Positions 68 to 64,000 of a stretch of DNA of 64,000 bases are shown here, piece after piece. A model generated the notes under the pieces. It was not told the DNA's origin. It did not search any database and saw only the letters and a list, made by a program, of their open reading frames with translations. Position 1 is the first letter of the stretch. Each line of letters opens with the position of its first letter. The position numbers and the translations under genes are program-made. This stretch comes from a virus, in IMG/VR virus record IMGVR_UViG_3300036853_000446, positions 343,635 to 407,634 of that record, one strand, 5' to 3'.

Positions 68-475
68 GTGGCGACGCCGATCTCAGAAGGGGTGTCCGCA
101 GGGCGCTTGCTTGTCTCGACGCACTGCGAGAGCGCCTGCAAAAGAGCTGACGGTTTGAACCGCCCTCCGACGTGGCTACGGCCACATCGCGAAAACGAGC
201 CTCTGCCGCCTCGAGGAGCGTTCGAGTACTGGAGACGAGCGAGCGAGCCCGTGCTCAGCTTCCTCCTCGACGAGCCCCGGAATTGGAAGACCCTGGATCA
301 ATGGGCCAAGGACACCCGCTTTGGCAAGAGCCGTCTTCGTCACGTGCTCGCCTGGCTCGAGCAGCGCGGAGAAGCTTACACGTTCACGCAATTGGAGGGA
401 CGAAAGGCGATCATCTATTGGGCTATTCCAGAGACGTTGAAGCCGTGTACCGCTTTGCGACCGCCGCAGAGGTGA
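68..475 (+). CDS. Hypothetical protein, possible winged-helix
   Basis: I do not recognise a family. The C-terminal two thirds (from about residue 45) look like a real folded protein with the feel of a winged helix-turn-helix: a helix near 'PVLSFLLDEP', then 'WKTLDQWAKDTRFGKSRLRHVLAWLE' split over two helices, then a short beta wing ending in 'IIYWAI'. The start is uncertain; GTG at 68 gives 135 residues, and GTG at 92 and TTG at 107 are in frame. No convincing ribosome binding site precedes any of them. The 3' end overlaps the convergent 2H phosphoesterase gene by about 50 bases. Confidence 0.4.
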   Translation: MATPISEGVSAGRLLVSTHCESACKRADGLNRPPTWLRPHRENEPLPPRGAFEYWRRASEPVLSFLLDEPRNWKTLDQWAKDTRFGKSRLRHVLAWLEQRGEAYTFTQLEGRKAIIYWAIPETLKPCTALRPPQR

Positions 476-1025
476 AACGGTCAACAACCCTCCGGGCCAT
501 GGCCGCCACCACCGCGTTGGTTGGGTTCAGTGCCAGGGGGAACGTCACCGTGAGCTTGCGGTCCCCCTCGTCACCGCCCCACATGCTGATCTCGTGCGCG
601 CCCCATTCGATGGTTGGGATTCGAAACTCTTCGACGGCGTCGGGCGCGTAGGCCAGGGTCACATGCGGCCTAAACGTACGGAATTTCTTGTTGAACTCGA
701 CGCCAGCCTCATCGAACGCCGCCACCAGATTGTTGCGCAGCGTGTGCAGGTCATCGGACTCGATGTGCGCGACGACAGGGTGTGACTCGTCGCCGCTAAT
801 GGGAAAGCTCGCGACCCGCGACGTCCCTACGGTGAATGGTCGCGTCCGGGCCGTGACCGCGTAGGTGGCCTTGATGGCTTCGGCGAGCATGTCTATAGGC
901 ACGTCGTCACCGATATAAATCAGCGTAATGTGCTGGTGGTCCCTTGGCGTCTTGTCCCCGGGGACTTCAATGTCGCTCAAGAGACGTGACGTGGGCGCGG
1001 GAATCGGCAGTCCGATCATCGCCAT
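423..1025 (-). CDS. 2H phosphoesterase (2'-5' RNA ligase-like)
   Basis: The protein has the two His-x-Thr motifs of the 2H superfamily (LigT/ThpR type): 'HITL' at residues 32-35 and 'HVTL' at 120-123, at the usual spacing in a roughly 200-residue protein. Known members hydrolyse 2',3'-cyclic phosphates or 2'-5' linkages; phage versions act in RNA repair or degrade cyclic oligonucleotide signals, but the substrate here is unknown. The C-terminus ends in 'SAAVAKRYTASTSLE', which matches the RVAxRY-like motif found at the termini of several other proteins in this window. The gene lies 2 bases after the stop of the upstream HExxH gene on the same strand. Confidence 0.8.
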   Translation of the reverse strand: MAMIGLPIPAPTSRLLSDIEVPGDKTPRDHQHITLIYIGDDVPIDMLAEAIKATYAVTARTRPFTVGTSRVASFPISGDESHPVVAHIESDDLHTLRNNLVAAFDEAGVEFNKKFRTFRPHVTLAYAPDAVEEFRIPTIEWGAHEISMWGGDEGDRKLTVTFPLALNPTNAVVAAMARRVVDRFTSAAVAKRYTASTSLE

Positions 1026-1027
1026 AT

Positions 1028-2437
1028 TTAAAGATCCTCTTTTCCTGTCATGACGGCTTCGAAGCGCTCGAGGATCTTGTCATCCCAATTACCTCTGGTG
1101 CCGAAATGCCCGAGAGCAAACAGCTCAGCGAAGGATTCACTCCCGCCGAAGCCCTCGGTACGGCTGTAGCTGGTCGTGCGCCACTGTTCCCGGTCGAAGT
1201 CTTCGGGCAGCCGGTTGAACCTCTCGAACCGGTGGCCCAGCTCATGCACCAGGATGTAGTCGGCACTCCCATAACTTCCTTCGCCGCGCTTCATGACCGC
1301 GGGCGTGGCCTTGACCCACATCTCGTCCTTGGCATGGATGTACCTGCCTTGTGACTTGATCTGCCCGGCGCCTTGAAAGACGACCGTGAGCGATCCTTTG
1401 AGTGCCTTGGCGCGCCATCCCTTTATCCGACCGAAGACGGCATCAATTTTCTCAGCATACTTCCGGAAGTTGACCTCGCTGATACTGGCTCGGCTCACGT
1501 AGACGGCATGCGCGAGCTTCAACTCGACAATCTGCTCCTTATTGCCGGCTGAACCATCTCCCTCGACCGTGAAGTATCGAACGAGGTCATCAAGGGCTGG
1601 CTCGAGGTGGCTCGACCAACCCCACCCCCACTGACCGTTAAAGTCAAAGAGTGAGGCACGGGCCGTTGAGTAATCACGGCTGTACTCCTCGAGCATTTTG
1701 AGGAAGCGGTTTGCTTCTTCCTTCAGCTTCTTCTGCCCTTTGGGCGTCTTCGCAGAGTCGACACGGAAGGTCTTCCGAAACCAGGCTGCAAACTCTTGAA
1801 CCTTGCCCTTGTCCTCTCGACTGAGCGGGGCGTCAGCGGGGTACGCCTTCACTCGCCCTTGGAGGTCGTCGACCTTTCGGACGAGTTCCTCCTTGAGGCC
1901 TGCCCGGAACACCCGCATCCCGGCCGCGGTGATATCCCAGAAATCACCCGCCTGGCTCTGGCCAGCGAGCTTCACGAGGCCTTGGGCCTTCAGGGCGTCG
2001 AGCTGCCCCTTGGGCGCTAGGACCACGCCCCCGTGGGCCATGATGCAAAGCTCATGCGTATGGGCGCCTGAAGCCTCCTTCTTGCCCCTCCAGCCGCCAC
2101 CGAAGCCGTTGTACTGCTTCACCGCCCACGCGATGCCGTACGGATTGGGCATGTGCTCGTAGCCCCTACCCTCGTTCGGCGCGTGGATGGTTCGTCCCGA
2201 CTGCGTGAATTCACGTCGGTCACCGTTCGCGACCTCGAGGCATTTGTCCCAGAGGTGCGGATTCGTTGCTTCGGAATCGTCCCTCAGGTTCGGCTCTGAG
2301 GGCGCCGTCTTCACGGCCCTCTTGACAGGGCGCTTGGCGGCCCTCTCGACCGGCTTGGGCGCGTCTTCCCGCCACGCGGGGGCTGAGGCACGAGCCTCCT
2401 CAGCCCAACGCAGCTGTCCCGTCCTCGACGTCTCCAC
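1028..2437 (-). CDS. HExxH zinc metallopeptidase-like protein
   Basis: A 469-residue protein with a metallopeptidase signature near the C-terminus: 'VHELGHRFERFN' (H398-E399-H402) and, about 35 residues later, 'ESFAELFALG', whose Glu could be the third zinc ligand. The layout matches the three HExxH proteins at 9.3-12.9 kb, so this is an unlinked relative. The first 60 residues are Lys/Arg/Ala/Pro-rich and probably disordered. A second region around residues 80-130 is rich in Gly, Trp and His ('GFGGGWRG', 'SGAHTHEL'). The start is GTG at 2437; no upstream in-frame ATG was seen. The protein might be a virion-carried protease or an inactive structural relative. Confidence 0.65.
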   Translation of the reverse strand: METSRTGQLRWAEEARASAPAWREDAPKPVERAAKRPVKRAVKTAPSEPNLRDDSEATNPHLWDKCLEVANGDRREFTQSGRTIHAPNEGRGYEHMPNPYGIAWAVKQYNGFGGGWRGKKEASGAHTHELCIMAHGGVVLAPKGQLDALKAQGLVKLAGQSQAGDFWDITAAGMRVFRAGLKEELVRKVDDLQGRVKAYPADAPLSREDKGKVQEFAAWFRKTFRVDSAKTPKGQKKLKEEANRFLKMLEEYSRDYSTARASLFDFNGQWGWGWSSHLEPALDDLVRYFTVEGDGSAGNKEQIVELKLAHAVYVSRASISEVNFRKYAEKIDAVFGRIKGWRAKALKGSLTVVFQGAGQIKSQGRYIHAKDEMWVKATPAVMKRGEGSYGSADYILVHELGHRFERFNRLPEDFDREQWRTTSYSRTEGFGGSESFAELFALGHFGTRGNWDDKILERFEAVMTGKEDL

Positions 2438-9289: not shown

Positions 9290-10396
9290 TCAGAGGGTCA
9301 GCTCAAAGCGCTTCATCACCGACGAAGGTATCGGCATGTTGAACACGTACGTCGCGAACGTCTCAGCGAAATCCTCACGCACGTTCGTCGCCGCGTAGCT
9401 CGACACGGTTTCTACCTTCACGGATTTCAGCCGAACGTATCGGTGATTGGGGCGCACGACTTGCCGTTCGACCCAAGCTCCCGCCTCGCTGTAGGCTCGC
9501 CAGTAATCCTTCGGTGAGGCTCCGATCTCCTTCAGATACTCGGCGACGGGAAGCCCCTTCTCTCGGAGAAATTTCTTCGCAGCCGCCGGCCTGAACTCGC
9601 CCTTCACGAGTGCTTGAAACAGATCCTGCCGCTGGTCGACGGTAAGTCCGCCCGCCGAGTACAGGTCCTCGTACTGCTCTTGCTGTGCCGTCGAGAGATG
9701 CTTGTGCCATCGCCGGTGCCCTATCTCGTGTACCAGCGTGAAGACGTCCGAGTGTTGATTTTTCGCATCTACGGTCAGCGCGATCGAGTCGCTGGCCTTA
9801 AAATATTCCCCTGCAACGCCAGGGCGACTCACTTTCGTATCCAGCAGGACTTCCCCGTACAGCAGGTCTCCGAACCCCTTTGCACGGACACGATCGGAGG
9901 CTTTGTCCAGCACCTCGAGGGGCTCGGCGTACTCCGACACGGAAAAGCCGTACTTGTTGACGATCTGCCATGGCCCATGGCTGAAGGTCTTCTCAACCTT
10001 AGCGTAGCCTTCGATCCGGTCTGCGACACGGCTCAACGACTTGAGCGTGTCTGCAAGCGACTCGAGGTGGTTGTGAATATGAATGTCTTGGATCGTCTCG
10101 TCGAGTTCGAGAGATCGGGAGTCGAAAGCTCTCTGAAGGTGCCGCAACCACCCGATCACGTTTTTCAGCTTCCGCTGCTCGTCTGGCCGCGAGAACTTGA
10201 TGTTGTCGAGCGCCGACGCGAGTGGCGCCAGCTCCCGTCCAAGTTCGAGGAACCGCTCCTTGGCTGCGGGAATGTTCTTCGCCTGGAGGAGGGCTTCGAT
10301 TCGCGGCCGCGCCGCCCTGAACGCTTGAATGGCGTCGTTCACGAGCTGTTTCGAGGCGTAGCGGGTCGCGACCCGGTACACCATCGTACTGGTCAC
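9290..10396 (-). CDS. HExxH metallopeptidase-like protein, array member 3
   Basis: Last gene of the leftward array. The GTG at 10396 lies inside a GTGA overlap with the upstream stop, giving 368 residues; the protein then starts 'VTSTMVYRVATRYASKQ', carrying the terminal RVAxRY motif. Residues 20-150 are helical. The zinc motif 'VHEIGHRRWHKH' starts at about H223, and 'REDFAETFATYV' about 115 residues later gives a possible third Glu ligand. The regions 'SHGPWQIV', 'LEVLDKA' and 'DLLYGEVLLDTK' match the next gene upstream, showing these are paralogues. Function unknown: possibly a virion maturation or ejected host-targeting protease. Confidence 0.7.
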   Translation of the reverse strand: MTSTMVYRVATRYASKQLVNDAIQAFRAARPRIEALLQAKNIPAAKERFLELGRELAPLASALDNIKFSRPDEQRKLKNVIGWLRHLQRAFDSRSLELDETIQDIHIHNHLESLADTLKSLSRVADRIEGYAKVEKTFSHGPWQIVNKYGFSVSEYAEPLEVLDKASDRVRAKGFGDLLYGEVLLDTKVSRPGVAGEYFKASDSIALTVDAKNQHSDVFTLVHEIGHRRWHKHLSTAQQEQYEDLYSAGGLTVDQRQDLFQALVKGEFRPAAAKKFLREKGLPVAEYLKEIGASPKDYWRAYSEAGAWVERQVVRPNHRYVRLKSVKVETVSSYAATNVREDFAETFATYVFNMPIPSSVMKRFELTL

Positions 10397-11526
10397 AGAA
10401 GCGACTCCATGATCGCGCCAATGCCCGGGGGCAGGTTCTTCCCCATGACATAGTGCGCGAATGCTTCCGCAAAGTTCTCCATCCAGCCGCCTGTCTTCCC
10501 GTAGCTCGTGACGTACTCGGGCTCGCGGACGACCTCCTTCGTCTTGATGGTAAAGTCCTTGCCGCTGACGACTGCCTTGCGCAGCTCCGCTTCGACGTCC
10601 TCCCCCTTCACGAACCGAACGCCAAGCTTTTGGGCAACGGAGCCAGCCGGCGTGCCGATGGTATGCCCCATCCACTCCAGGAACAGCTCCGATGGTTTCG
10701 GCTGGGGCTTGCCGTCACGCCGCGCCTTCGCGATGTCGATGTATTCGGCCGCGACGTTCTCCCGAGCCCCGGCGTCATATGTGATCTCGCGGTGCTCGGG
10801 CGTCGTGGAAAGACGCATGAACTCGTCCCGCTGGTCCTTGTTCTTCCAGAACTTGTAGAAGTACCGGTGCCCAAACTCGTGGCACAAGGCGTGGACGTCT
10901 CCGATGTTGCCCCGGGCCTTGAGGCTCAAGTAGACAACGTCGTTGGTCACATTGTAACGAGCGGCCGCCATATGATTCGACAGATTCTTGACGATGAAGA
11001 CCCGCCCGTAGAGGACCTTTGGAAACTTTGGCTGGAGGATCTTGTAGGCCTTGTCGAGCGCCTCGAGACATTCTCGAACTTTAGGCCCCGTGACTCCGTG
11101 AGGCACGATCTCGAAAACGCCGTGCTGGAAGGTCTTGTCGTCGGCCTTGTTGATGATACCCTGCAGCCATTTGATTTCGAACGCGAGTTGGCCAAAAAGC
11201 TCCTGAGGAGCTGCGTCTGGTTCGAGCACCAGTCGTCCAAGAGCGCGAATGATGGTCAATGCTCTCTTCTGATGGCGGGGGCCGAGGGCGGAGTACCAGT
11301 CCGCGTCCACAGACCATCGGTCACCGTTACGTATGACATCGAGTTCCGCGAGCGCCTGCTCTACCAGGGCCACGTTGAACTTACCCGTACTCAGGCCCTG
11401 AACGACGGGGCCCAGAGCGCCGCGCGACAGGATGTATCGCGCCGCTACCCGCCCGGTCATCACAGCGGCTGCGGCCACCCGCGCCTTTACAGCCCACCGC
11501 GTGGCCACCCGAGCCGTCAGGTTCAC
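10393..11526 (-). CDS. HExxH metallopeptidase-like protein, array member 2
   Basis: Starts at GTG 11526 within a GTGA overlap, giving 377 residues. The N-terminus carries two copies of the terminal motif, 'ARVATRW' and 'GRVAARYILSRG', within the first 35 residues. The zinc motif 'CHEFGHRYFYKF' begins at about H216 and the downstream 'ENFAEAFAHYV' at about 350 supplies a candidate third ligand. It shares 'QHGVFEIV', 'LEALDKA' and 'KVLYGRVFIVK' with array member 3. Upstream in-frame codons back to 11658 exist but would read through the neighbouring gene and lack support. Confidence 0.7.
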   Translation of the reverse strand: MNLTARVATRWAVKARVAAAAVMTGRVAARYILSRGALGPVVQGLSTGKFNVALVEQALAELDVIRNGDRWSVDADWYSALGPRHQKRALTIIRALGRLVLEPDAAPQELFGQLAFEIKWLQGIINKADDKTFQHGVFEIVPHGVTGPKVRECLEALDKAYKILQPKFPKVLYGRVFIVKNLSNHMAAARYNVTNDVVYLSLKARGNIGDVHALCHEFGHRYFYKFWKNKDQRDEFMRLSTTPEHREITYDAGARENVAAEYIDIAKARRDGKPQPKPSELFLEWMGHTIGTPAGSVAQKLGVRFVKGEDVEAELRKAVVSGKDFTIKTKEVVREPEYVTSYGKTGGWMENFAEAFAHYVMGKNLPPGIGAIMESLL

Positions 11527-12884
11527 GCGACACCTTGAAGCGACAGATAGCGCTCTGCCACTCGCGTCGCGGCCAGTTTGGCCCCACCCAACCCACAAAC
11601 CTGGCTGAAGAACTCCCGCGTCCATGGTTTGACGGCGCGAGGCCCCTTCGTAATCCACAGGCGAAAGACTTCGGCGAAGGCTTCCATCGGGTTCGTATTG
11701 CCGTAGTCGGTCGTCTCTTCGATCAGAACCGGCTCCCCTACCTTGGTCTCGAGAAATTTCGTGTAGGCTGCGGGGTCAAAGACTTTCACGTCCCAAGGCA
11801 TGAGAATCATCTTAGCTAGCTCTCGAAACTTGGCTTCATCCGCGGCACCCCCCGCGTGAGGCAGAACCGCCCGTAACCGATCGTCGTCCCCGTCCAGAGC
11901 CCTTAGTGTTTGAGAGTCAACCTTACGAATGATCAGGTCGGCGAACCTACGCACGTCGTCGCGCGTGATCTTCACCGACCGCGACATCATGACCTCCTCC
12001 CAGTGGTTTCGTGCCTGCACCGGCAATTCCCGAAAGTAGAAGCGGTGCCCACACTCGTGTACGAAAGTTCCGTGACCAGAATCGTCTCCCACGATTCCGA
12101 GCGAATACATGCTCAATGTGTCGGTCGCGGGCTGATACATCCCGGTTGTTGCCCACTCTTTCGCCTTCGTGTCGAAGTCGACCGTTACCGTCAGCCCTTT
12201 GACTGCCCCTCCGAATCCAGACCGTTTGATCTCGTCGACTCGTTGCCTGAGGCTTCGAAGGAAGGACTCGAGATCATTCTGATCATCATCGTCACGTCCA
12301 AAGTTCAGTAGCACGACGTGGACGCCGCCTACCTCCAAATGGTCGACCGGGATGTAACGCTCGACTTTGCCTTCTGGTGACATTTCAAGGTAGTCGTCGA
12401 TTTCCTTCAGCGCCTTCGTTGCCTTCAGTTGATAGCGCTTGATATTGCGGTCACGTTCGTGTCGAAGCTTCGACCAGTCGGGCTCCTTGCTCGGGTGGAA
12501 GACGGGGAAGAGCTGGTGGGCATCGAGTTCGTGCCTGAGGTCCCACGCGCTCGTTCGAATCGCCTTCTCCATGTGGGTTTCGGGCCGGTCCGACGCATGG
12601 GTCTTCGGGAGGAGTTCGCGATAAACCCACTCCTCAAAGTTTTCCCGAAAGTTACGAAACAGACTTCGGGCCTGCTCGAACACGGCGCGCGCATCACGAA
12701 CGCGAGTCACGTCCGCGTCGTAGGGTACATCGGCGTCGATGGAGCGGTAGATCTTCGTCATGATGCGGAGGTCTTTCCGCCACCGATCAACAGTACTCTT
12801 GTCGAGGGTCCTCGCGCTTCGACCGCCGGTTGACAGATAGCGATGGACTAGACTCGCCGTGAGAGGTTCTCCGTCCATGATCAC
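11523..12884 (-). CDS. HExxH metallopeptidase-like protein, array member 1
   Basis: A 453-residue member starting at GTG 12884 in a GTGA overlap with the topoisomerase stop. The motif 'FVHECGHRFYFRE' begins at about H276, and 'MEAFAEVFRLW' about 125 residues later fits the third-ligand position. The preceding strand region ('KGLTVTVDF', 'MYQPATDTLSMY') resembles the HExxH protein at 1.0-2.4 kb. Here the RVAxRY-like motif is at the C-terminus instead ('AATRVAERYLSLQGVA'), with only a weak N-terminal version ('LVHRYLS'). Function unknown. Confidence 0.7.
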   Translation of the reverse strand: MIMDGEPLTASLVHRYLSTGGRSARTLDKSTVDRWRKDLRIMTKIYRSIDADVPYDADVTRVRDARAVFEQARSLFRNFRENFEEWVYRELLPKTHASDRPETHMEKAIRTSAWDLRHELDAHQLFPVFHPSKEPDWSKLRHERDRNIKRYQLKATKALKEIDDYLEMSPEGKVERYIPVDHLEVGGVHVVLLNFGRDDDDQNDLESFLRSLRQRVDEIKRSGFGGAVKGLTVTVDFDTKAKEWATTGMYQPATDTLSMYSLGIVGDDSGHGTFVHECGHRFYFRELPVQARNHWEEVMMSRSVKITRDDVRRFADLIIRKVDSQTLRALDGDDDRLRAVLPHAGGAADEAKFRELAKMILMPWDVKVFDPAAYTKFLETKVGEPVLIEETTDYGNTNPMEAFAEVFRLWITKGPRAVKPWTREFFSQVCGLGGAKLAATRVAERYLSLQGVA

Positions 12885-13699
12885 CGCTCCAGATAGATTT
12901 CTGCGACGCAGGCCGCGGTCTTGACCATCTTGTCCATCACGCTGCCATCTTTCAAATACGCATCGGATAACCCAGGCACGAGGTATTGATTCTCCAGCGT
13001 ACCGGCCTCGTGGCCAACAGCCTCTGCTGTGGTCTCGAGTGCCTTCTTGAACTCCTTCTTGAGCTGAGTCTTACGCTCTTTCGGATCGGTTGGAAGCTTT
13101 CCACCTTTGCTCCGGACCGCCTTGAGTTCCGTCTTCATGGTTTCGTTTGCATGAAGTCCGCGAATGTCCTTGGCACTGATGTCAAATTCGTCGAGAAAGG
13201 TATTCACCTTCTCCGCCGTGATCTTACCCCCTTCATGGCAGAAGAGATCGCCGTCTTTGCAGTTCTCATGAGCATGTTTGAGAGCCGAGACGAGGGCCTT
13301 GTCGGTCACGGTCTTCTTCTGCTTGACTCCGCTCTTGCCTGTGTAGCTGATCGTAGCCTTGGCCTTGCCAAAGCTCACGTGGCTCTTCTGCCACCCGGTC
13401 ACGCCCACGTGACCGAGTTCTTCCTTCGAAGTATCATTGCCGACCCGTTCCGCGGTGTGATCCATCAACCCGACGACGAGCGCCGTCAGGGCCGTCTCGG
13501 GGTCCTTTGACGCGAGGTCCTTCTTGACGCGGGCGCGGAGCTTGTGGACGCTCTTCCGCAGCTTCTCGAGCCGTTTGGCCTTGTCGCTGTTGCGCTTGGC
13601 AATTTGCCGCTCGGAATACTCGTAGACGACCGTGTCCGAGTCCGGGATTTTCTTCTTGGATTTGTAACGAGCGGCAACTCGGGCAGCAATGGACGTCAC
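12881..13699 (-). CDS. Type IB DNA topoisomerase (eukaryote/pox type)
   Basis: A 272-residue type IB topoisomerase relaxes supercoils through a 3'-phosphotyrosyl intermediate. The family blocks read in order: 'HTAERVGND' (Arg of the catalytic set), 'GVTGWQKSHVSF', 'ISYTGKSGVKQ', 'GDLFCHEGGKITAEKVNTFL', 'ISAKDIRGLHANE' (Arg/His region), and 'TLENQYLVPGL' with catalytic Tyr about 239. The N-terminus 'VTSIAARVAARYKSKKK' carries the RVAxRY motif and a basic stretch. GTG 13699 is the start. It heads the leftward operon with three HExxH genes and may be packaged or act on replicating phage DNA. A tyrosine integrase was considered; the motif order fits TopIB better. Confidence 0.85.
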   Translation of the reverse strand: MTSIAARVAARYKSKKKIPDSDTVVYEYSERQIAKRNSDKAKRLEKLRKSVHKLRARVKKDLASKDPETALTALVVGLMDHTAERVGNDTSKEELGHVGVTGWQKSHVSFGKAKATISYTGKSGVKQKKTVTDKALVSALKHAHENCKDGDLFCHEGGKITAEKVNTFLDEFDISAKDIRGLHANETMKTELKAVRSKGGKLPTDPKERKTQLKKEFKKALETTAEAVGHEAGTLENQYLVPGLSDAYLKDGSVMDKMVKTAACVAEIYLER

Positions 13700-13812
13700 C
13701 CCCCTGCCGCGGCAACAGAGGATTAGGGGCCGGCGATTCTGCGCGTCCGGCGAAACCCGTTCGGGTGACGGCGCGGCCGGGGGCTAACTTCCACTTGTGC
13801 AGCTCCCCTGGC

Positions 13813-15105
13813 ATGAGCCTCTCGGAGTCACCGTCGAACAATCTACCGGTCGCCATCTATCATGCCTTCGACCTGCCATTCACCGAGGTCGAAAGTCTCG
13901 TGGAAGTCATTGCAAAGCAGGGTTACTCTCACGTTCAGATCCCGCCCGCTCAGAAGTCGAACGACGCGGGCGGCGCGTGGTACGAGCGCTATCAGCCCGT
14001 TGACTACACCGTGATCGAGGGACGAGGGAGCGAAGCCGAACTCGAGAGTCTGACCAAGGCGGCCCATGCCTGCGGCCTGCGAGTGATCGCCGATGTCGTT
14101 TTCAACCAAATGGCCAACAGCCCGCCTTACTACGATAAGGAAACGGGCAAGCTCGATTTCCCCGGCTTGACTCCAGAGGACTTTCATCCCAAGAAGGACA
14201 TCGATTACGGGAACCCAGACCTGATCAGAGACGGTTGGCTCAACGGCGATTTGCCGGACCTGGACCATACCCGACCCGCCGTGCAGCGGCTTCAGAAGGG
14301 GCACCTCGCCAAGTTGCTCGCGCTCGGCATCGACGGCTTCCGGTTTGACGCCGCCAAGCACATGGCGATGAGCACCCTGCAAGACTATCTCGAATTCATC
14401 AACGTCGAGACCAACAACGAGGCCTGGAATTACCTCGAGGTCATCGAGGGCGATGGCATCTCGGGAGATAGCTACCAAAGCATCGCTGCCGTTACCGATT
14501 TTCGTCTCTACCATGCCGTCCGCGATGCCTTTTCCTTTGGAGGAGACCTAAAGAATTTGCGCATGCCACGCGGACTCGACGACTCGCGCAGCGTCCTTTT
14601 TGGCATGAATCACGACACCGATACGAACAATACCGAAGGCCTCAACGAGATGGCTTACGCCGAACGAAGTGATTCGCTGCTCGCAACGGCCTACGTGCTG
14701 GCCCGCGAGAACGGGGTCCCCCTCGTGCTCCATAGTGACAATCAGGTCGACTATATCCAGGCCGGCGCGAAGTTCCGGCAGATCATGCGAGCGAAATCGG
14801 GCGAAGGTCTATCCGTCACGGAGAATGTGCTCGGGATCGTCGAGGGAGACACGATACTCGTCATGGAACGGGGGACCGAAGGACTCTTCATCGTCAACAA
14901 GGCCGCAGAGACCTTCGATATTTCGAAGCTCGACGTGACGTTTACTCACCTCGGTGGGCGCTACCGCGAGCTGCGCCACGGCTTTACGATGGACATCGAA
15001 CGGAAAGACGATCGGAAGGCCATCGTCAACTGGGGCGATACGAATCGAGATGGCCTGTACATCAAGGGAAGGGATGCCCTCTATTTCGTCCGCGCCGCTT
15101 CATAG
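13813..15105 (+). CDS. GH13 alpha-amylase-family enzyme
   Basis: A roughly 430-residue glycoside hydrolase family 13 protein, expected to act on alpha-glucans. Conserved regions: I 'VIADVVFNQ' (usual His replaced by Gln), II 'GIDGFRFDAAKHM' (nucleophile Asp), III 'YLEVIEGDG' (acid/base Glu, most likely the first), IV 'FGMNHDT' (third Asp). The (beta/alpha)8 barrel is followed by a short C-terminal beta domain. No signal peptide is seen from ATG 13813; an in-frame GTG at about 13764 would add 16 residues. It is an isolated plus-strand gene between minus-strand genes, its end overlapping the DHH gene by 25 bases, which suggests later acquisition. It may be a metabolic gene acting on host glycogen. 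Confidence 0.85.
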   Translation: MSLSESPSNNLPVAIYHAFDLPFTEVESLVEVIAKQGYSHVQIPPAQKSNDAGGAWYERYQPVDYTVIEGRGSEAELESLTKAAHACGLRVIADVVFNQMANSPPYYDKETGKLDFPGLTPEDFHPKKDIDYGNPDLIRDGWLNGDLPDLDHTRPAVQRLQKGHLAKLLALGIDGFRFDAAKHMAMSTLQDYLEFINVETNNEAWNYLEVIEGDGISGDSYQSIAAVTDFRLYHAVRDAFSFGGDLKNLRMPRGLDDSRSVLFGMNHDTDTNNTEGLNEMAYAERSDSLLATAYVLARENGVPLVLHSDNQVDYIQAGAKFRQIMRAKSGEGLSVTENVLGIVEGDTILVMERGTEGLFIVNKAAETFDISKLDVTFTHLGGRYRELRHGFTMDIERKDDRKAIVNWGDTNRDGLYIKGRDALYFVRAAS

Positions 15106-20679: not shown

Positions 20680-20985
20680 TCAAGGCGCGTCTTGGAGCCA
20701 ATCAACACGGTGCAGCAATACTTTTTGAGGCTCGCCCGGGCAAACGAGGTAGGACCTCAAATATAGGTGAGGTCTGCGTCTCCGAACCTCGTGGCCCCCG
20801 AGGGCATAGCGCGCGTCCCCCTTCCCTACGGATGCTTCTCCTGGAGATAAAGCCCTGACCAACAGTTGAGCCAGCTGGTTGAAATCGGTGGTTACAGTCG
20901 CGCTCGAGACTTCACTGTCCGTGAGATCCAAAGAGTCCTCGTCCGGCGGCATCGAGGGAACAAACGTGGCCTTTGCATCAGTCAT
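20680..20985 (-). CDS. Hypothetical small protein
   Basis: A 101-residue protein with an acidic, disordered N-terminal half and a basic C-terminal half ('GHEVRRRRPHLYLRSYLV'). It overlaps the upstream DUF1848-like gene by 8 bases and so is probably co-expressed. No family recognised. Confidence 0.5.
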   Translation of the reverse strand: MTDAKATFVPSMPPDEDSLDLTDSEVSSATVTTDFNQLAQLLVRALSPGEASVGKGDARYALGGHEVRRRRPHLYLRSYLVCPGEPQKVLLHRVDWLQDAP

Positions 20986-38974: not shown

Positions 38975-39610
38975 TCAAAAGGCGAAGTAGACGCCCGCGT
39001 TGACGTTGTGGAGGGGCTCCGTCCAACCGATTCCGTATCCCGCGTAGATACCGAAGTTGGTGGTGAGATCGAACCCGAGCCCTGCCCCGACGCTGCGAAA
39101 GCCGGCGGCGACGTTGAAATTGACCCACTCGAAAAAAGCCAGGTCAATCAAGATGCCCGCATCGACGCCGCTCTCGAAACTGCCGTGCGAGAGCTTGAAC
39201 GGGAGATAGCTGAGATATGCCTTGGGTCGAAAGCGGAAGCCGTAGGTCTCCGGAGTCTTCATACCGGCGGTGATTTGAACCTCACCGGTTGCGTCGACGT
39301 CGAGATGGCACCACTTCATCCGAATCGTGAACGGCCTTTTTGGGTCGGCCCCCGTATAGAAGACGCGACCGTCTTCGTCGGTCACGATCACCACTCGGTC
39401 GACATCGAAGACGGGTTTTTCGTGTTCGAGGCATTGGCGATCCCTCGCAATCGTCAAGAAGGTGTCTAGGTCTTTCTGAGGGAGACAGACGTAGCCCTGG
39501 GGAGCTTTGCAAGGGTCCTGCGCGTCCGCGAAGGAGGGAGCCATCGCGGACGCCATGGTCAGCACGGTTGCCGTGAGGACGCGCTTTTGCAGACGCTGCG
39601 ACACCGTCAT
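38975..39610 (-). CDS. Exported outer-membrane beta-barrel-like protein
   Basis: A 211-residue protein with a signal peptide (basic 'RLQKR', hydrophobic 'VLTATVLTMASAMA', cleavage likely after Ala30). The mature part has alternating amphipathic strands and ends in 'NAGVYFAF'; the final aromatic residue is the Bam signature of outer-membrane barrels. Probably an envelope protein made by the phage, such as a receptor-masking or superinfection-exclusion factor. ATGA overlap with the next gene. Confidence 0.65.
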   Translation of the reverse strand: MTVSQRLQKRVLTATVLTMASAMAPSFADAQDPCKAPQGYVCLPQKDLDTFLTIARDRQCLEHEKPVFDVDRVVIVTDEDGRVFYTGADPKRPFTIRMKWCHLDVDATGEVQITAGMKTPETYGFRFRPKAYLSYLPFKLSHGSFESGVDAGILIDLAFFEWVNFNVAAGFRSVGAGLGFDLTTNFGIYAGYGIGWTEPLHNVNAGVYFAF

Positions 39611-40698
39611 GCGGCATCCTCGACAGCGGCAGACTCCAGAATCTCTTTGAGTTCGGGAGGCGAGGTTACCACCTGGGCAAGCGCCTTCAGAATCGGTTTG
39701 CCCCCGCCGCGCATCTTCGTGATGACCTTGTGACTGCCCGGAGAGTAGTACGTCCCGAAGATGGCCTTCAGGATACCCTTCTTGTCGAGCGCCTTGGACA
39801 GCTCCGGGCCGAGCTGAAATTCACGGCCATTGACCGTAATCACAACGGGGTTCCCTTCCCCGAGCTTCCCATAGACGATGTTGATCCGAATGTCCCTCTT
39901 GCGGTTCTGCCAGGGGTCGTCCTCGCCAACCAATCCGAGCAGGCTGACCGCGTCCTTGAAGGAAACCGCCTTGGTCAGATGGTCATCCATGCGCTCGGTA
40001 AACTTGGCCCCTTCGGGTATCATGTTGACTTTGGCCCCGTAGCCCTTCTTCAACTCGTGCGGAAATTCCCCGTAGAGGTCTCGAATCACTTTCGGGGCGA
40101 GCGTTCGGAATTCCCCGCGGACCTTCCTTTGAAGCATCCACCACTCGTCGATGTCTTCTCCAGTGTATGCATTCCTCGCCGTGTAATGCTGGGCGGCGAC
40201 GAACACGTGGGTCTCTCCATCCACGCCATAAAGGACGTAAGCCGATGATCGGGTGTCACCGTACCCGCCATAGCTCGTCTGGGTCTTGAATTTCCAATCG
40301 ACCTGATGGACGCCCGCCTCGGCGAACGCCTCCTCGAAGGTGATCCGCACGGGATCTGGCTTAGGACGCCCCTTTGGATTGGCGATTGGGCCATCCCAGG
40401 GTTCCGTCTCGGGTGCCGGCGGATCGCGAGGGGCGCCTAGATCGCGGTCGGGTCGCAAGTGCCCCGTCAGAACGTCTTTCGCAATGTTGTAGGGCTTGAG
40501 GGCGGTCTGGTCCGCCGCCTCCGCCGGATTCTCCCGTAGGATCTCGGTGACCTTGGCCCTGTACGCCGTCTGCACCTGAGCATCCGTCGGTCTGTCCGTT
40601 GAAGGAAAACCTAGCGTCTCGAGCGCTTCGGCGTAGGTGAAAGCCTTGAAAACCCGGTAGCGGGTGGCGACGCGAGAAGCGATGCTGGGCATATCCAT
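39607..40698 (-). CDS. J-domain-like protein with terminal RVAxRY motif
   Basis: A 363-residue protein starting 'MDMPSIASRVATRYRVFKA', a strong copy of the terminal motif. Residues 20-75 ('FTYAEALETLGFPSTDRPTDAQVQTAYRAKV' in parts, then 'ALKPYNIAKDVLTG') look like the helices of a DnaJ J-domain, but the HPD tripeptide is replaced ('ENP'), so Hsp70 stimulation is doubtful. The remaining 280 residues are mixed alpha/beta and unassigned. Possibly a virion or ejected protein. Confidence 0.6.
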   Translation of the reverse strand: MDMPSIASRVATRYRVFKAFTYAEALETLGFPSTDRPTDAQVQTAYRAKVTEILRENPAEAADQTALKPYNIAKDVLTGHLRPDRDLGAPRDPPAPETEPWDGPIANPKGRPKPDPVRITFEEAFAEAGVHQVDWKFKTQTSYGGYGDTRSSAYVLYGVDGETHVFVAAQHYTARNAYTGEDIDEWWMLQRKVRGEFRTLAPKVIRDLYGEFPHELKKGYGAKVNMIPEGAKFTERMDDHLTKAVSFKDAVSLLGLVGEDDPWQNRKRDIRINIVYGKLGEGNPVVITVNGREFQLGPELSKALDKKGILKAIFGTYYSPGSHKVITKMRGGGKPILKALAQVVTSPPELKEILESAAVEDAA

Positions 40699-49277: not shown

Positions 49278-49844
49278 ATGAACGCTTCGAAGACCCTTCT
49301 AGCCCTCCTCGCCCTCCTCGCGGTTGGTTGCGCACAGAGTACTTCAGACGTCAGAGTCAGCGGGTCGGCTAGTTCAGCTCCACCGGCAGCGGCGACAGAA
49401 ACCGCACCGGAAAAGGTCGATCCACAGCCCTGCGGTCTGGCACTCGACCCAGTCCCTCAGTTGCTCGCGGAGACCACGGTGTCCGCCGCACGTTGGTCTG
49501 CGGCAACCGGCTGCGATGTACGAGTCGAAGTTGGCGGCTTGCCGGTCCGTTTCGCGACTCCTGAAGAACTGACCATGGAGGACGGTGGGCATGCACGCGG
49601 TGTGGCGTCGTTCGGCGACGACGGCCAAGTCAAGTTCATTGGTTACCGCAGCGGCTCGATGAATGACTGGACGGTCGATATGACACTGACACACGAGCTG
49701 GGCCATGCACTCGGCTGCCACTCGCACACCAACGATGGCAGCGTGCTCGACTCGCCGTCTCAGCTCTACTCGAAGATCACTGCCAATGCGCTAGAGTGTG
49801 TCTGCGCCTCGCTCAACTGCGAAGTGTTCGTTCCGGAAGCGTAA
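49278..49844 (+). CDS. Lipoprotein with HExxH motif
   Basis: A 188-residue lipoprotein: lipobox 'LLAVGC' (C18), disordered 20-50, then a compact domain with 'THELGHALGCHSH' (H139-H143). This is close to the metzincin motif HExxHxxGxxH, but the third His falls one residue off (H148 or H150 instead of H149), so zinc binding may be altered. Two more Cys follow ('ECVCASLNC'). Unlike the cytosolic HExxH array, this is exported. Plus-strand single gene. Confidence 0.7.
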   Translation: MNASKTLLALLALLAVGCAQSTSDVRVSGSASSAPPAAATETAPEKVDPQPCGLALDPVPQLLAETTVSAARWSAATGCDVRVEVGGLPVRFATPEELTMEDGGHARGVASFGDDGQVKFIGYRSGSMNDWTVDMTLTHELGHALGCHSHTNDGSVLDSPSQLYSKITANALECVCASLNCEVFVPEA

Positions 49845-60905: not shown

Positions 60906-63900
60906 TCACTCAGCGTCGTCGATGTAGACCTCGACGACGCCACCCCCGGGATCTCGCACGATGCGGTAGTCGTGATAATCGCCATCGAGGTAATCGACGG
61001 TCGCCCGGCCCATCACGGCACCGTTGTTGAGGTCAAAGACTTCGACGAAACGTTCACCCGACGGATGCGTCACGAAGCCAATGCCCAGAGTCATGCCGGG
61101 CGCCGAGAGACCGAACCGCACCTGAGAGTCCCCGATACCGAGGGTCGCGTCTTGGGCCAGACGGATTCGGAATGCCGCCGTTGTCACGTGGCTTGGGGCA
61201 TCAGGCAGCGGGGTGTTGTTGAGGTAGGCCGTTTTGGTCCCTGAATCGCCCGTTCCGTACGTCAGAACGCCGCTCGAGACGCCCATCGAGACCTGGCCAG
61301 GGTCGTCGCTGTTGAGGATCCACGGCGTAGGCGAATCCGCATTCTCCGGCAGCGCGTCCGCTTCGTAATTCAGACAGACCTCGTTCTGATAGTTGACTCC
61401 GCCATAGGAAGGATTCGGAGAATCGCCCATCGGCGCGAGAAGGCCTTCCTCGCCAGTCGCCGTCTCGACGAGCTGCAGACTCGTGTAAAGGACGTCTTCC
61501 GGCACGGTGAAGGCGTACCGGGTCTCGCCATCGTTGACGCTGAACGTCCCGGGATCGCTCAAAACCCCACCGGGATCGCTCATCGATCCGACGGGAGTCT
61601 GCGTGACGAAGGGCCTGCGGGTCTCAAATGTCTGGGTCGAGGGCACCGCTGGCGTCCCCTGATTCAACCGCGTAAAGGCCGGGACATCGCCTCGTGAAAG
61701 GAAATCGGGATCAGCCTGAGACGTCGTGCCCGTCGAGCTGCTTCGGAAATTCGTGAGGGGCACCGCCGCGGTGAGGCGTTCGGGACTCTCCATCACGTTC
61801 CACTGGTTCAAGACCTGATGTGGCGGCACCGCATTCAAATCCGTGGCGTTGCGCGTGAGCCCGTATCGAACGAAATCCCATTGAGACTGTTCGAGATGTT
61901 CAGGATTGAACGAGCCGAACGCAATCGCCGGTAGGCCGTGACTCAAGGTCTGAACAACGCCCGCCCCACTCACCGGCAACGAAATCGAATCGTAATCCAC
62001 TCGAATCAAGGGCAACACGCTCTCGTCGAGAAACACCGAGACAGAGCCCGTCGAATCTCTAGCGAGTCGATACTTGTGAGGCACGCTCCAATCCGTCTCC
62101 TGCACGATCCGGTAAGCGACGATGGACGGTTGCGCTGGCCACGAGCTGGTCAAAGTCAGCTTTTGAAGATTGACGCAGGTGGCGACCTCGCAAACGCCCT
62201 TGTTCAAGCCGTCGTCCACGACAATCGAATCTCCCGACTGAATGTTGGCCGCCACGAAGTCCGCGAGAGGGTCCTCGAGCGCGTTGCCCACGACCGTCGC
62301 CGTACCGGACGTCTTGAGGGGCAGATGATATCCGGTCAACGAGTCTCGGTCGGTCCCCTTCCAGAGGCCCATGTAGCGGCGCGGCGACGTCTCGACTCGC
62401 CAGGCGTTGCAGTACGACCAGTCGACGACAGACCGGGCCTCATCGCTCGCTGGGGTCGAGCTGCCAAAGCTGAGCATACCAGTGTCCGGTGCCGGTGCGC
62501 CAAAACCGTTATAGGCGAAGCTGATAAGGAAGGCGCCGTCGGCAAAAACCGTCACGAGATTACCCGCCGTGCTCTTTCGAACCCGATAGGTATGTGGGGC
62601 CCCGTCGTTCCAATTGAATGGGAAACGGGCGGAGACGCCAAGCTCGACGCCGTCAGAATGGAAGGCAACATACCGGACCCCTGCGATCTCGACCAGCATG
62701 ATGCCGATCGCGCGCACGCCGTCGAACACTTGAGCAAACGCGCCGGCAAACCCGGAGCTGTCGGCATCATAGGAGATGACCTCGAGGCGCGTTTCGAAGA
62801 AATAGTCGAAGGTCGAGTCGATAACTCGAAAGGCACTCTCTGAAGGAACGTCGTCCTCGATGAAATAAACGCGGCCGTCAGTCGTGCTCGTGTCCGTGAT
62901 GCGCAAGAGCCGCCCCCGCATCGCCACGGACTGATTGCCAAGGCTTGCTCCCCTCCGTGCCTCGTTGCCCGTCGACCAGACGAAGGGGGCAAACTCGTCC
63001 GGCAGGGACCGTCCGCCGTAAGACAGCCTCGGACAACTCTCAGACGGGAAGAAACACAGCTGCATGAGGCGTGTCCCGTCGTCCACGGCGACCATCAGAC
63101 CGTCGGGGTCGACGCCGTGAGTCTGGGTCAACATCTGGAGGCCCACGTCCACGACGACTTGCGATGACGCTGCGAGGAGGGGCTCGATCTTCACGTAACC
63201 GTGAAAATCACCCCCGATGAGGCCCGCGCTCGCGCTCGTCGCAACGTCCGTAGCGCTCGTCGAATCGAGGATCAAAACGCCCAAAGAGATCCGTGCTGTC
63301 CCGTGAAAGCCAATCGGCGTCCAAGGGGAAGCATCGGCTTCAGGCAATACGTCGCCCTCGTACGACACGAAGCTCGAGGGGCTCGTCTGGAAGGCATTGA
63401 TCGGCTGGCTCAAATAGCGATAGAAATCCCACGTTGACGTCGACATCGCTGGGCGCGAGAGACTGCCAAAGAACACGCCCTGGATTTCATCGAAGGGGGC
63501 ATTCAACTCCTCGAGGAACGGCGCCTCATCGGCCGTCATTCGCAATGTCCCGACGATGGAGCCATCGACGTAGAGTCGGACCACTCCTTCACGGTCGGTA
63601 AACAACCGATAGCTGCGTTGCACGGACCAGTCGAGAGGAACCGGGGCCCCTGTCGCCACCCCGTTCGAGTCGAGCCCGCCCGTCCACGCATCTGCAACGG
63701 CGACGCTGTCTCGAGCCCCCCGCTTCAAGAGACCGATCTTGCGGACCCCGCCGTCATCGAGATAGCCAATGACATAGGCGACGTGTTCGTTGGCGTACCC
63801 CGCGACAATTCCCGTCCACACCCCCTCGCTCGCGGTCACCGCATCGAGCGAGAAACGCCAGGCGGCCGAGAAAACATGATCGAAGCTCAGGTCAATCGCC

Positions 63901-64000
63901 CGTGTCCAAAAGAGCGGCGATCCTGTTGGAAACGTCTGAGCGGAATTGTCGACGACGACAAGTGAGCCCGCCGCGACGACAGGTGCCCCCAAGCCCTTGC
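60906..64000 (-). CDS. Concanavalin-like repeat fibre protein, partial
   Basis: At least 1028 residues, 5' end outside the window (the frame stays open to base 64000). It contains at least four repeats of about 200 residues with the LamG/concanavalin pattern, each with a 'YRL/YRV...R...G.V.VYVDG' core ('RSYRLFTDREGVVRLYVDG', 'HTYRVRKSTAGNLVTVFADG', 'HKYRLARDSTGSVSVFLDE', 'HDYRIVRDPGGGVVEVYID'). Such modules bind carbohydrate and are common in fibre tips. Likely part of the tail adsorption apparatus. Confidence 0.65.
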   Translation of the reverse strand, partial: KGLGAPVVAAGSLVVVDNSAQTFPTGSPLFWTRAIDLSFDHVFSAAWRFSLDAVTASEGVWTGIVAGYANEHVAYVIGYLDDGGVRKIGLLKRGARDSVAVADAWTGGLDSNGVATGAPVPLDWSVQRSYRLFTDREGVVRLYVDGSIVGTLRMTADEAPFLEELNAPFDEIQGVFFGSLSRPAMSTSTWDFYRYLSQPINAFQTSPSSFVSYEGDVLPEADASPWTPIGFHGTARISLGVLILDSTSATDVATSASAGLIGGDFHGYVKIEPLLAASSQVVVDVGLQMLTQTHGVDPDGLMVAVDDGTRLMQLCFFPSESCPRLSYGGRSLPDEFAPFVWSTGNEARRGASLGNQSVAMRGRLLRITDTSTTDGRVYFIEDDVPSESAFRVIDSTFDYFFETRLEVISYDADSSGFAGAFAQVFDGVRAIGIMLVEIAGVRYVAFHSDGVELGVSARFPFNWNDGAPHTYRVRKSTAGNLVTVFADGAFLISFAYNGFGAPAPDTGMLSFGSSTPASDEARSVVDWSYCNAWRVETSPRRYMGLWKGTDRDSLTGYHLPLKTSGTATVVGNALEDPLADFVAANIQSGDSIVVDDGLNKGVCEVATCVNLQKLTLTSSWPAQPSIVAYRIVQETDWSVPHKYRLARDSTGSVSVFLDESVLPLIRVDYDSISLPVSGAGVVQTLSHGLPAIAFGSFNPEHLEQSQWDFVRYGLTRNATDLNAVPPHQVLNQWNVMESPERLTAAVPLTNFRSSSTGTTSQADPDFLSRGDVPAFTRLNQGTPAVPSTQTFETRRPFVTQTPVGSMSDPGGVLSDPGTFSVNDGETRYAFTVPEDVLYTSLQLVETATGEEGLLAPMGDSPNPSYGGVNYQNEVCLNYEADALPENADSPTPWILNSDDPGQVSMGVSSGVLTYGTGDSGTKTAYLNNTPLPDAPSHVTTAAFRIRLAQDATLGIGDSQVRFGLSAPGMTLGIGFVTHPSGERFVEVFDLNNGAVMGRATVDYLDGDYHDYRIVRDPGGGVVEVYIDDAE

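Follow-up and report, generated by a model that had tools for sequence, protein, structure and literature searches.

In phage polyvalent proteins, no domain is more common than zincins of the kind described below (Iyer et al. 2017, PMC5512222). Polyvalent proteins presumably enter the host cell along with the DNA. The internal proteins of phage T4 and DarB of phage P1 carry a capsid targeting sequence, which is a short N-terminal signal (PMC9026906, PMC9024508), and T4 cuts these sequences off after entry into the heads (PMC9026906). SprT-like metallopeptidases occur in one to three copies in some jumbo phages, and different host-protein targets have been suggested for them (PMC7824862). Here, we analyzed a stretch of 64,000 nucleotides (the window; coordinates refer to it unless stated otherwise), which comprises bases 343635-407634 of the 407,634-base IMG/VR virus record IMGVR_UViG_3300036853_000446. 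Three adjacent genes at positions 9290-12884, named A, B and C, code for putative metallopeptidases with an HExxH motif. Together with a number of unrelated proteins, they carry a short terminal sequence, here called the tag. We propose that the tag is an address for cargo that is packaged into the head and injected, gluzincin-type peptidases included, and that it may also be a processing site. The probability of this reading is, in our estimate, about 0.55.

The tag has the approximate consensus R-V-A-x-R-[YF]-L and lies near an end of nearly all family proteases of the record. It was first spotted by reading protein termini, after which the whole record was searched with a DNA pattern. Convincing tags were found nearly all on the coding minus strand, which holds 143 of the 232 genes called in the stretches covered; matches on the forward strand were judged to be noise. 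Genes in unannotated records were called with a simple codon model written for this analysis. All tagged genes of the window named here are on the minus strand. Gene A (11523-12884, 453 amino acids) has the tag SLVHRYL at the N-terminus (12834-12854) and RVAERY at the C-terminus (11547-11564), the protein ending in LSLQGVA. Gene B (10393-11526, 377 amino acids) carries two N-terminal copies, RVATRW (11494-11511) and RVAARY, followed by ILS (11434-11451), and gene C (9290-10396, 368 amino acids) has RVATRY (10358-10375). The same sequence marks proteins unrelated to the proteases. In the window, these are the operon partner type IB topoisomerase (TopIB; 12881-13699, 272 amino acids, Pfam PF01028, 8.7e-26), with RVAARY at the N-terminus (13664-13681); a 2'-5' ligase-like 2H phosphoesterase (423-1025, Pfam PF13563, 4e-13), with AVAKRY at the C-terminus (447-464) and RVVDRF before it; and a 363-amino-acid protein whose N-terminus appears J-domain-like by eye (39607-40698), with RVATRY (40657-40674). 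In the record as a whole, the tag was found on a GNAT protein, a Dps/ferritin-like protein, several J-domain proteins, an ART-like protein (97850-99079 of the record; labelled by eye, library searches giving no support), two products of head genes, further proteases and others with no assigned function. As with capsid targeting sequences, a short sequence is thus common to unrelated proteins, and these would be cargo. The Dps/ferritin-like protein (54.8-55.5 kb of the genome; L070:16796-17491) is a possible DNA-protecting component of the virion.

In two further phages, the tag recurs. It begins four of four proteases of the uncultured phage LR745208, three of which have copies of the LVDRYL type, and it is present on four of five proteases and on TopIB of a third phage, G001 (435 kb). 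The G001 tags are more degenerate and visible only at the protein level; DNA-level pattern counts were hardly above control. The open papers searched, a scope outside which most subscription papers lie, do not describe a tag of this kind, and the motif looks new. A separate tagged family of 360-406 amino acids with a Cys-rich CxxCFRNIKL segment was seen near HExxH genes at three loci (L123:2624-3706, L129:12085-13203 and L133:1729-2949).

The recurrence of the tag was assessed with a scoring matrix built only from the protease tags and run on other proteins, a score of at least 12 being taken as a hit; these statistics refer to selected stretches of the genome. In 99 kb not selected for the tag, made up of the window and the region of the head genes, 86 other proteins gave three N-terminal hits and one C-terminal hit, and there was none at 20,714 internal positions. 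Independent IMG/VR relatives, which had not been used for defining the tag, carried it at the N-terminus in 14 and at the C-terminus in 3 of 29 distinct proteases. Among 357 neighbours at these independent loci, hits were found at 9 of 18,564 N-terminal and 4 of 60,830 internal positions (7.4-fold; Fisher p = 6e-4). The effective support is weaker than this p-value, since the N-terminal hits represent about six families (L123, L129 and L133 are related, as are L150 and L153). Two of the six (L137; L150/L153) are homologous to tagged genes of our own phage (at 147 kb and 162 kb, respectively), which indicates that the tag persists between proteins no more than about 33-34% identical.

The location of tagged genes points to the head. 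The portal gene lies outside the window, at 93.7-95.5 kb of the record, the gene for the terminase large subunit (TerL) at 99.1-101.2 kb, and that for the likely major capsid protein, which has an 83% identical counterpart in LR745208, at 84.9-85.8 kb. The interval from portal to TerL contains the tagged ART-like gene, the gene next to the portal codes for a large, acidic protein with a tag, and a tagged protein of 594 amino acids is encoded just past TerL. In G001, the homologue of the acidic protein has MAERVASAFL at the matching place and the tagged TopIB gene lies in the TerL-portal interval; in LR745208, TopIB is directly downstream of the portal. Replication genes beside the head module (clamp, clamp-loader and SbcCD-type) carry no strong tag. 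Taken together with cargo of the polyvalent type, these observations favour the head as the destination. The tag could instead direct its bearers to another place, such as the inner membrane, a host adaptor or a compartment for phage replication. Compartments are formed by some jumbo phages, and the motif resembles a short amphipathic helix, residues 3-34 of B being predicted as helical with low confidence. However, replication proteins would be expected in such a compartment, and it is the neighbours of portal and terminase that are tagged, the replication genes beside the head module having no strong tag; we regard another destination as quite unlikely.

Under the proposed virion address, every HExxH peptidase would be an effector in its own right that a huge phage brings along, and the tag would mark the peptidases, TopIB, the 2H phosphoesterase and the GNAT, Dps-like, J-domain and ART-like proteins alike as virion cargo. 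It would be recognised during prohead assembly, so that its bearers are packed in the head, and the cargo would enter the host along with the DNA. There, the peptidases may cut host, defence or co-delivered phage proteins, and DNA, RNA and proteins may be the substrates of the remaining cargo. Relatives have these modules fused into polyvalent proteins that retain the tag at their joints. The sequence-only reading of this DNA had suggested virion proteases with different targets. A role in the virion is plausible on grounds which that reading did not have: the common terminal tag, the tagged genes of the head module, and two relatives whose TopIB gene neighbours portal or terminase.

The HExxH proteins are probably gluzincin-type zinc metallopeptidases, judging from their active-site residues and predicted fold. 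A profile search of the record revealed at least ten family members and an eleventh, short one at 246 kb, giving about eleven. Besides A-C and gene D (1028-2437, minus strand, 469 amino acids), these include a tandem pair at 325 and 327 kb of the record and copies at 226, 160, 178 and 206 kb. The HExxH motif reads HECGH in A (residues 276-280; 12045-12059), HEFGH in B (residues 216-220; 10867-10881), HEIGH in C (residues 223-227; 9716-9730) and HELGH in D (residues 398-402; 1232-1246). HE.GHR followed by F-A-E-x-F, a pair already pointed out for A, B and C in the sequence-only reading, is present in all four proteins, and the additional blocks HG..eIV and LE.LDKA, reported there for two genes, are found in B and C. 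The fourth HExxH gene named there is real (gene D), and the family is even larger than was then thought. The motif pair HE.[GA]H...F[AC]E.F occurs four times in the 65 genes called in the window, compared with a mean of 0.0 in 300 rounds of composition-preserving shuffles. The remaining HExxH matches in the window were unrelated or noise. One separate observation is a small lipoprotein-like secreted metzincin candidate (49278-49844, plus strand; HELGHALGCHSH, weak Reprolysin_5 match), which is unrelated to the tagged family.

All 21 sequences compared contain HExxH and Y...E.(F)[ACS]E, with a conserved Tyr upstream of the Glu; in the family members of the record, the spacing from HExxH to Y...E.(F)AE.F is 36-214 residues. 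AlphaFold2 modelling of B with 25 sequences gave a mean predicted local distance difference test score (pLDDT) of 78.5, with values mostly of about 85-97 in residues 130-377, the catalytic half; a run with only four sequences (pLDDT 42) was discarded. Helix 211-225 of the model carries HExxH and helix 348-360 carries E354, both helices being predicted with confidence. The best viral fold match was a protein of Achromobacter phage Motura (1.3e-7, significant), and significant matches were also obtained to proteins of Pseudomonas phage PaBG, annotated as 'putative peptidase', and of Erwinia phage pEa_SNUABM_5, annotated as 'putative endopeptidase family M34'. Matches to PDB folds, which is a point against a peptidase cargo, were not significant (best E 0.41), the leading weak ones (E >= 0.41) being mostly gluzincins (M1, M9, LF-like and selecase). 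In Pfam, Peptidase_Mx and ATLF were matched only below threshold; the M34/ATLF profile scored 15.7-17.3 bits, with 27.4 required, and the PDB profile match spans only 28 residues. PHROGs gave weak matches only, and that of A to 'tail assembly chaperone' (6e-4), which covers the HExxH region, was taken as chance. Structure prediction and fold search, the checks named for the earlier protease call, returned neither a model without the putative metal site nor a non-peptidase fold. The call is strengthened by the HExxH and Glu of all sequences compared, their position on predicted helices and the viral peptidase folds.

The peptidase family is already known in outline as the zincin of phage polyvalent proteins. 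The polyvalent-protein MPTase (PMC5512222) likewise has HExxH with a Glu on a later helix, a distant likeness to LF endopeptidase, a phage origin, a head-module context, and ART, GNAT and methylase functions as company; the classes of tagged cargo described here match those of polyvalent proteins (PMC5512222). The difference is in architecture: polyvalent proteins unite the domains in one giant protein, whereas about eleven separate genes, most with a terminal tag, were found here. No second known domain was detected by Pfam in A-D, so these four do not qualify as polyvalent proteins themselves. The link is provided by Rctr197k, in which an HExxH domain lies within a 2175-amino-acid multidomain protein beside a terminase-like gene. 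It shares 31% identity with LR_65k across 306 residues and matches the family profile at 2.8e-20. By homology to its domain, the peptidase belongs with the polyvalent-protein MPTase group. The SprT-like enzymes (PMC7824862) resemble the family in the expansion of zincin copy number in a jumbo phage, but they are another subfamily with at most three copies and no tag reported.

Fused relatives bear on how the tag may be used. At locus L146, a protein of 1118 amino acids joins TopIB and an A-type peptidase to a region that looks NUDIX-like by eye, with tags at 207, 695 and 1106; the latter two bracket the peptidase and match the places of gene A's own tags. Such tags at module joints would suit an address on each module, a site for cutting or a combination of the two, and the tag may therefore also be a processing site. 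Could cleavage be its main function, with a prohead protease or the HExxH peptidases trimming termini and splitting fused polyvalent proteins? The bracketing in L146 and the motif just outside the peptidase module in L151 and LR_277k would suit this, zincins that process their own polyvalent proteins have been proposed earlier (PMC5512222), and the targeting peptides of T4 are themselves cut (PMC9026906). However, most bearers are small, single-domain proteins from which cutting would take away just some 10-15 residues, the motif is not followed by a constant residue that could define a scissile bond, and the motif is doubled at several termini. Cleavage as the main function is, in our view, unlikely. 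The virion address itself has a parallel in the capsid targeting sequences of T4 and P1, which are also short terminal sequences on otherwise unrelated cargo, injected enzymes included. Unlike these signals, the tag also occurs at C-termini and inter-domain joints; it was defined independently of them, and its targeting role is proposed by analogy.

Relatives in cultured phages were found through the predicted fold. The peptidases of PaBG (PaBG_00182, endopeptidase) and Motura (QDH83424) and that of pEa_SNUABM_5 share the predicted fold of the family. In PaBG and Motura, the family profile matches one protein each, with HExxH and the late Glu but without a tag, in metabolic surroundings and with no TopIB neighbour in the stretch read. 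In pEa_SNUABM_5, a family profile match was not found. The Motura relative (L165; 13-20 kb of the record) is located with thymidylate synthase, GroES, queC and tgt, and not with head genes. No match was given by tblastn of A, or of a long paralogue, against cultured phages, or by scanning IMG/VR with the single proteins A, B and TopIB. Scanning IMG/VR with a profile of the long paralogues yielded 37 loci, and the same profile detected no relative among 84,980 genomes of bacteria and archaea.

These tag-less relatives indicate that the tag is separable from the peptidase. They would also be expected if the tag were a functionless relic of descent or terminal-segment shuffling and the proteases ordinary intracellular enzymes of host takeover. 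Drift, however, would erase such a motif, and V-A-x-R-Y/F is kept across highly diverged proteins, at both ends and on unrelated folds; a relic thus seems improbable. Several observations nonetheless weigh against the virion address. The peptidases of the cultured phages PaBG and Motura lie in metabolic regions without a tag, and that of PaBG is not among the 14 abundant virion proteins of this phage; the tagged phages are known here from their genes alone. Gene D has no clear tag, 15 of the 29 independent relatives lack an N-terminal hit, and in LR745208 it is mainly proteases and TopIB that are tagged. Tags at C-termini and junctions are unlike a simple N-terminal targeting peptide. Moreover, most stretches outside the window and the head region were chosen for containing the motif.

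The genes of the array follow each other in the order TopIB, A, B and C on the minus strand. The four-base GTGA overlaps described earlier for the three genes hold at A/B and B/C, where a plausible ribosome site lies 6-8 bases upstream. In the case of gene A, the GTGA start is possible, and an ATG six bases later with a better-spaced GGAG is at least as likely. Open reading frames of B and C taken from the first start (11658 and 10675, respectively) were judged too long. The sequence-only reading explained the array by serial duplication in one operon, which we reject. B and C are only 26-30% identical to each other, and relatives in other phages are equally close or closer: about 45% identity for C (L146, L149), 36% for B (LR745208) and about 31% for A (L155/L157). 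In the tree, the three genes fall into old subfamilies. A groups with LR_464k and G1_394k, on long branches that call for caution, in a subfamily common also to L155/L157; B, C and the 160-kb copy group with LR_202k and G1_108k, and D with G1_102k. Only the 325-, 327- and 178-kb copies are close to one another, as clear recent paralogues.

The position next to TopIB looks like an exchangeable slot. Linkage of TopIB and an HExxH gene was found in the window and in L125, L128, L131, L134, L146 and L151, and the peptidase subfamily in the slot from TopIB to Dam varies from phage to phage. Locus L134 matches the window in its order (DHH phosphatase, TopIB, one HExxH gene, HNH, Dam, response regulator, RNase HII), and its single HExxH gene is of a different subfamily from those of the window. 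In L149, the C-type gene is placed in another operon. The HExxH genes of the slot look like exchangeable cargo genes. At L124, L132 and L136, an HExxH gene directly precedes the gene of a very large protein, a homologue of that at 60906-63992 of the window. Between TopIB and the DHH phosphatase, on the opposite strand, the window contains a gene with a GH13/alpha-amylase catalytic domain (13765-15105, plus strand; Pfam 9e-11), and no counterpart was seen in the syntenic L134 interval. The tagged 2H phosphoesterase (423-1025, minus strand) gave a sub-threshold match to Acb1 (anti-CBASS) and is a candidate injected anti-CBASS enzyme; PADLOC found nothing convincing.

The protease expansion shows that modules of polyvalent proteins can exist as separate tagged genes. 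It is conceivable, at a little under even odds, that in a widespread group of uncultured huge phages one position-flexible peptide code loads at least 20 different effectors, a battery of divergent proteases included, into the virion for injection, and that genome sequence would suffice to list the injected proteome. Were the tag a cleavage code instead, it would show how fused proteins get cut up. If it is a virion address, asking which proteins huge phages inject would become a sequence search, dozens of candidate first-minute effectors would be named, and a short peptide would be available for loading proteins into large heads.

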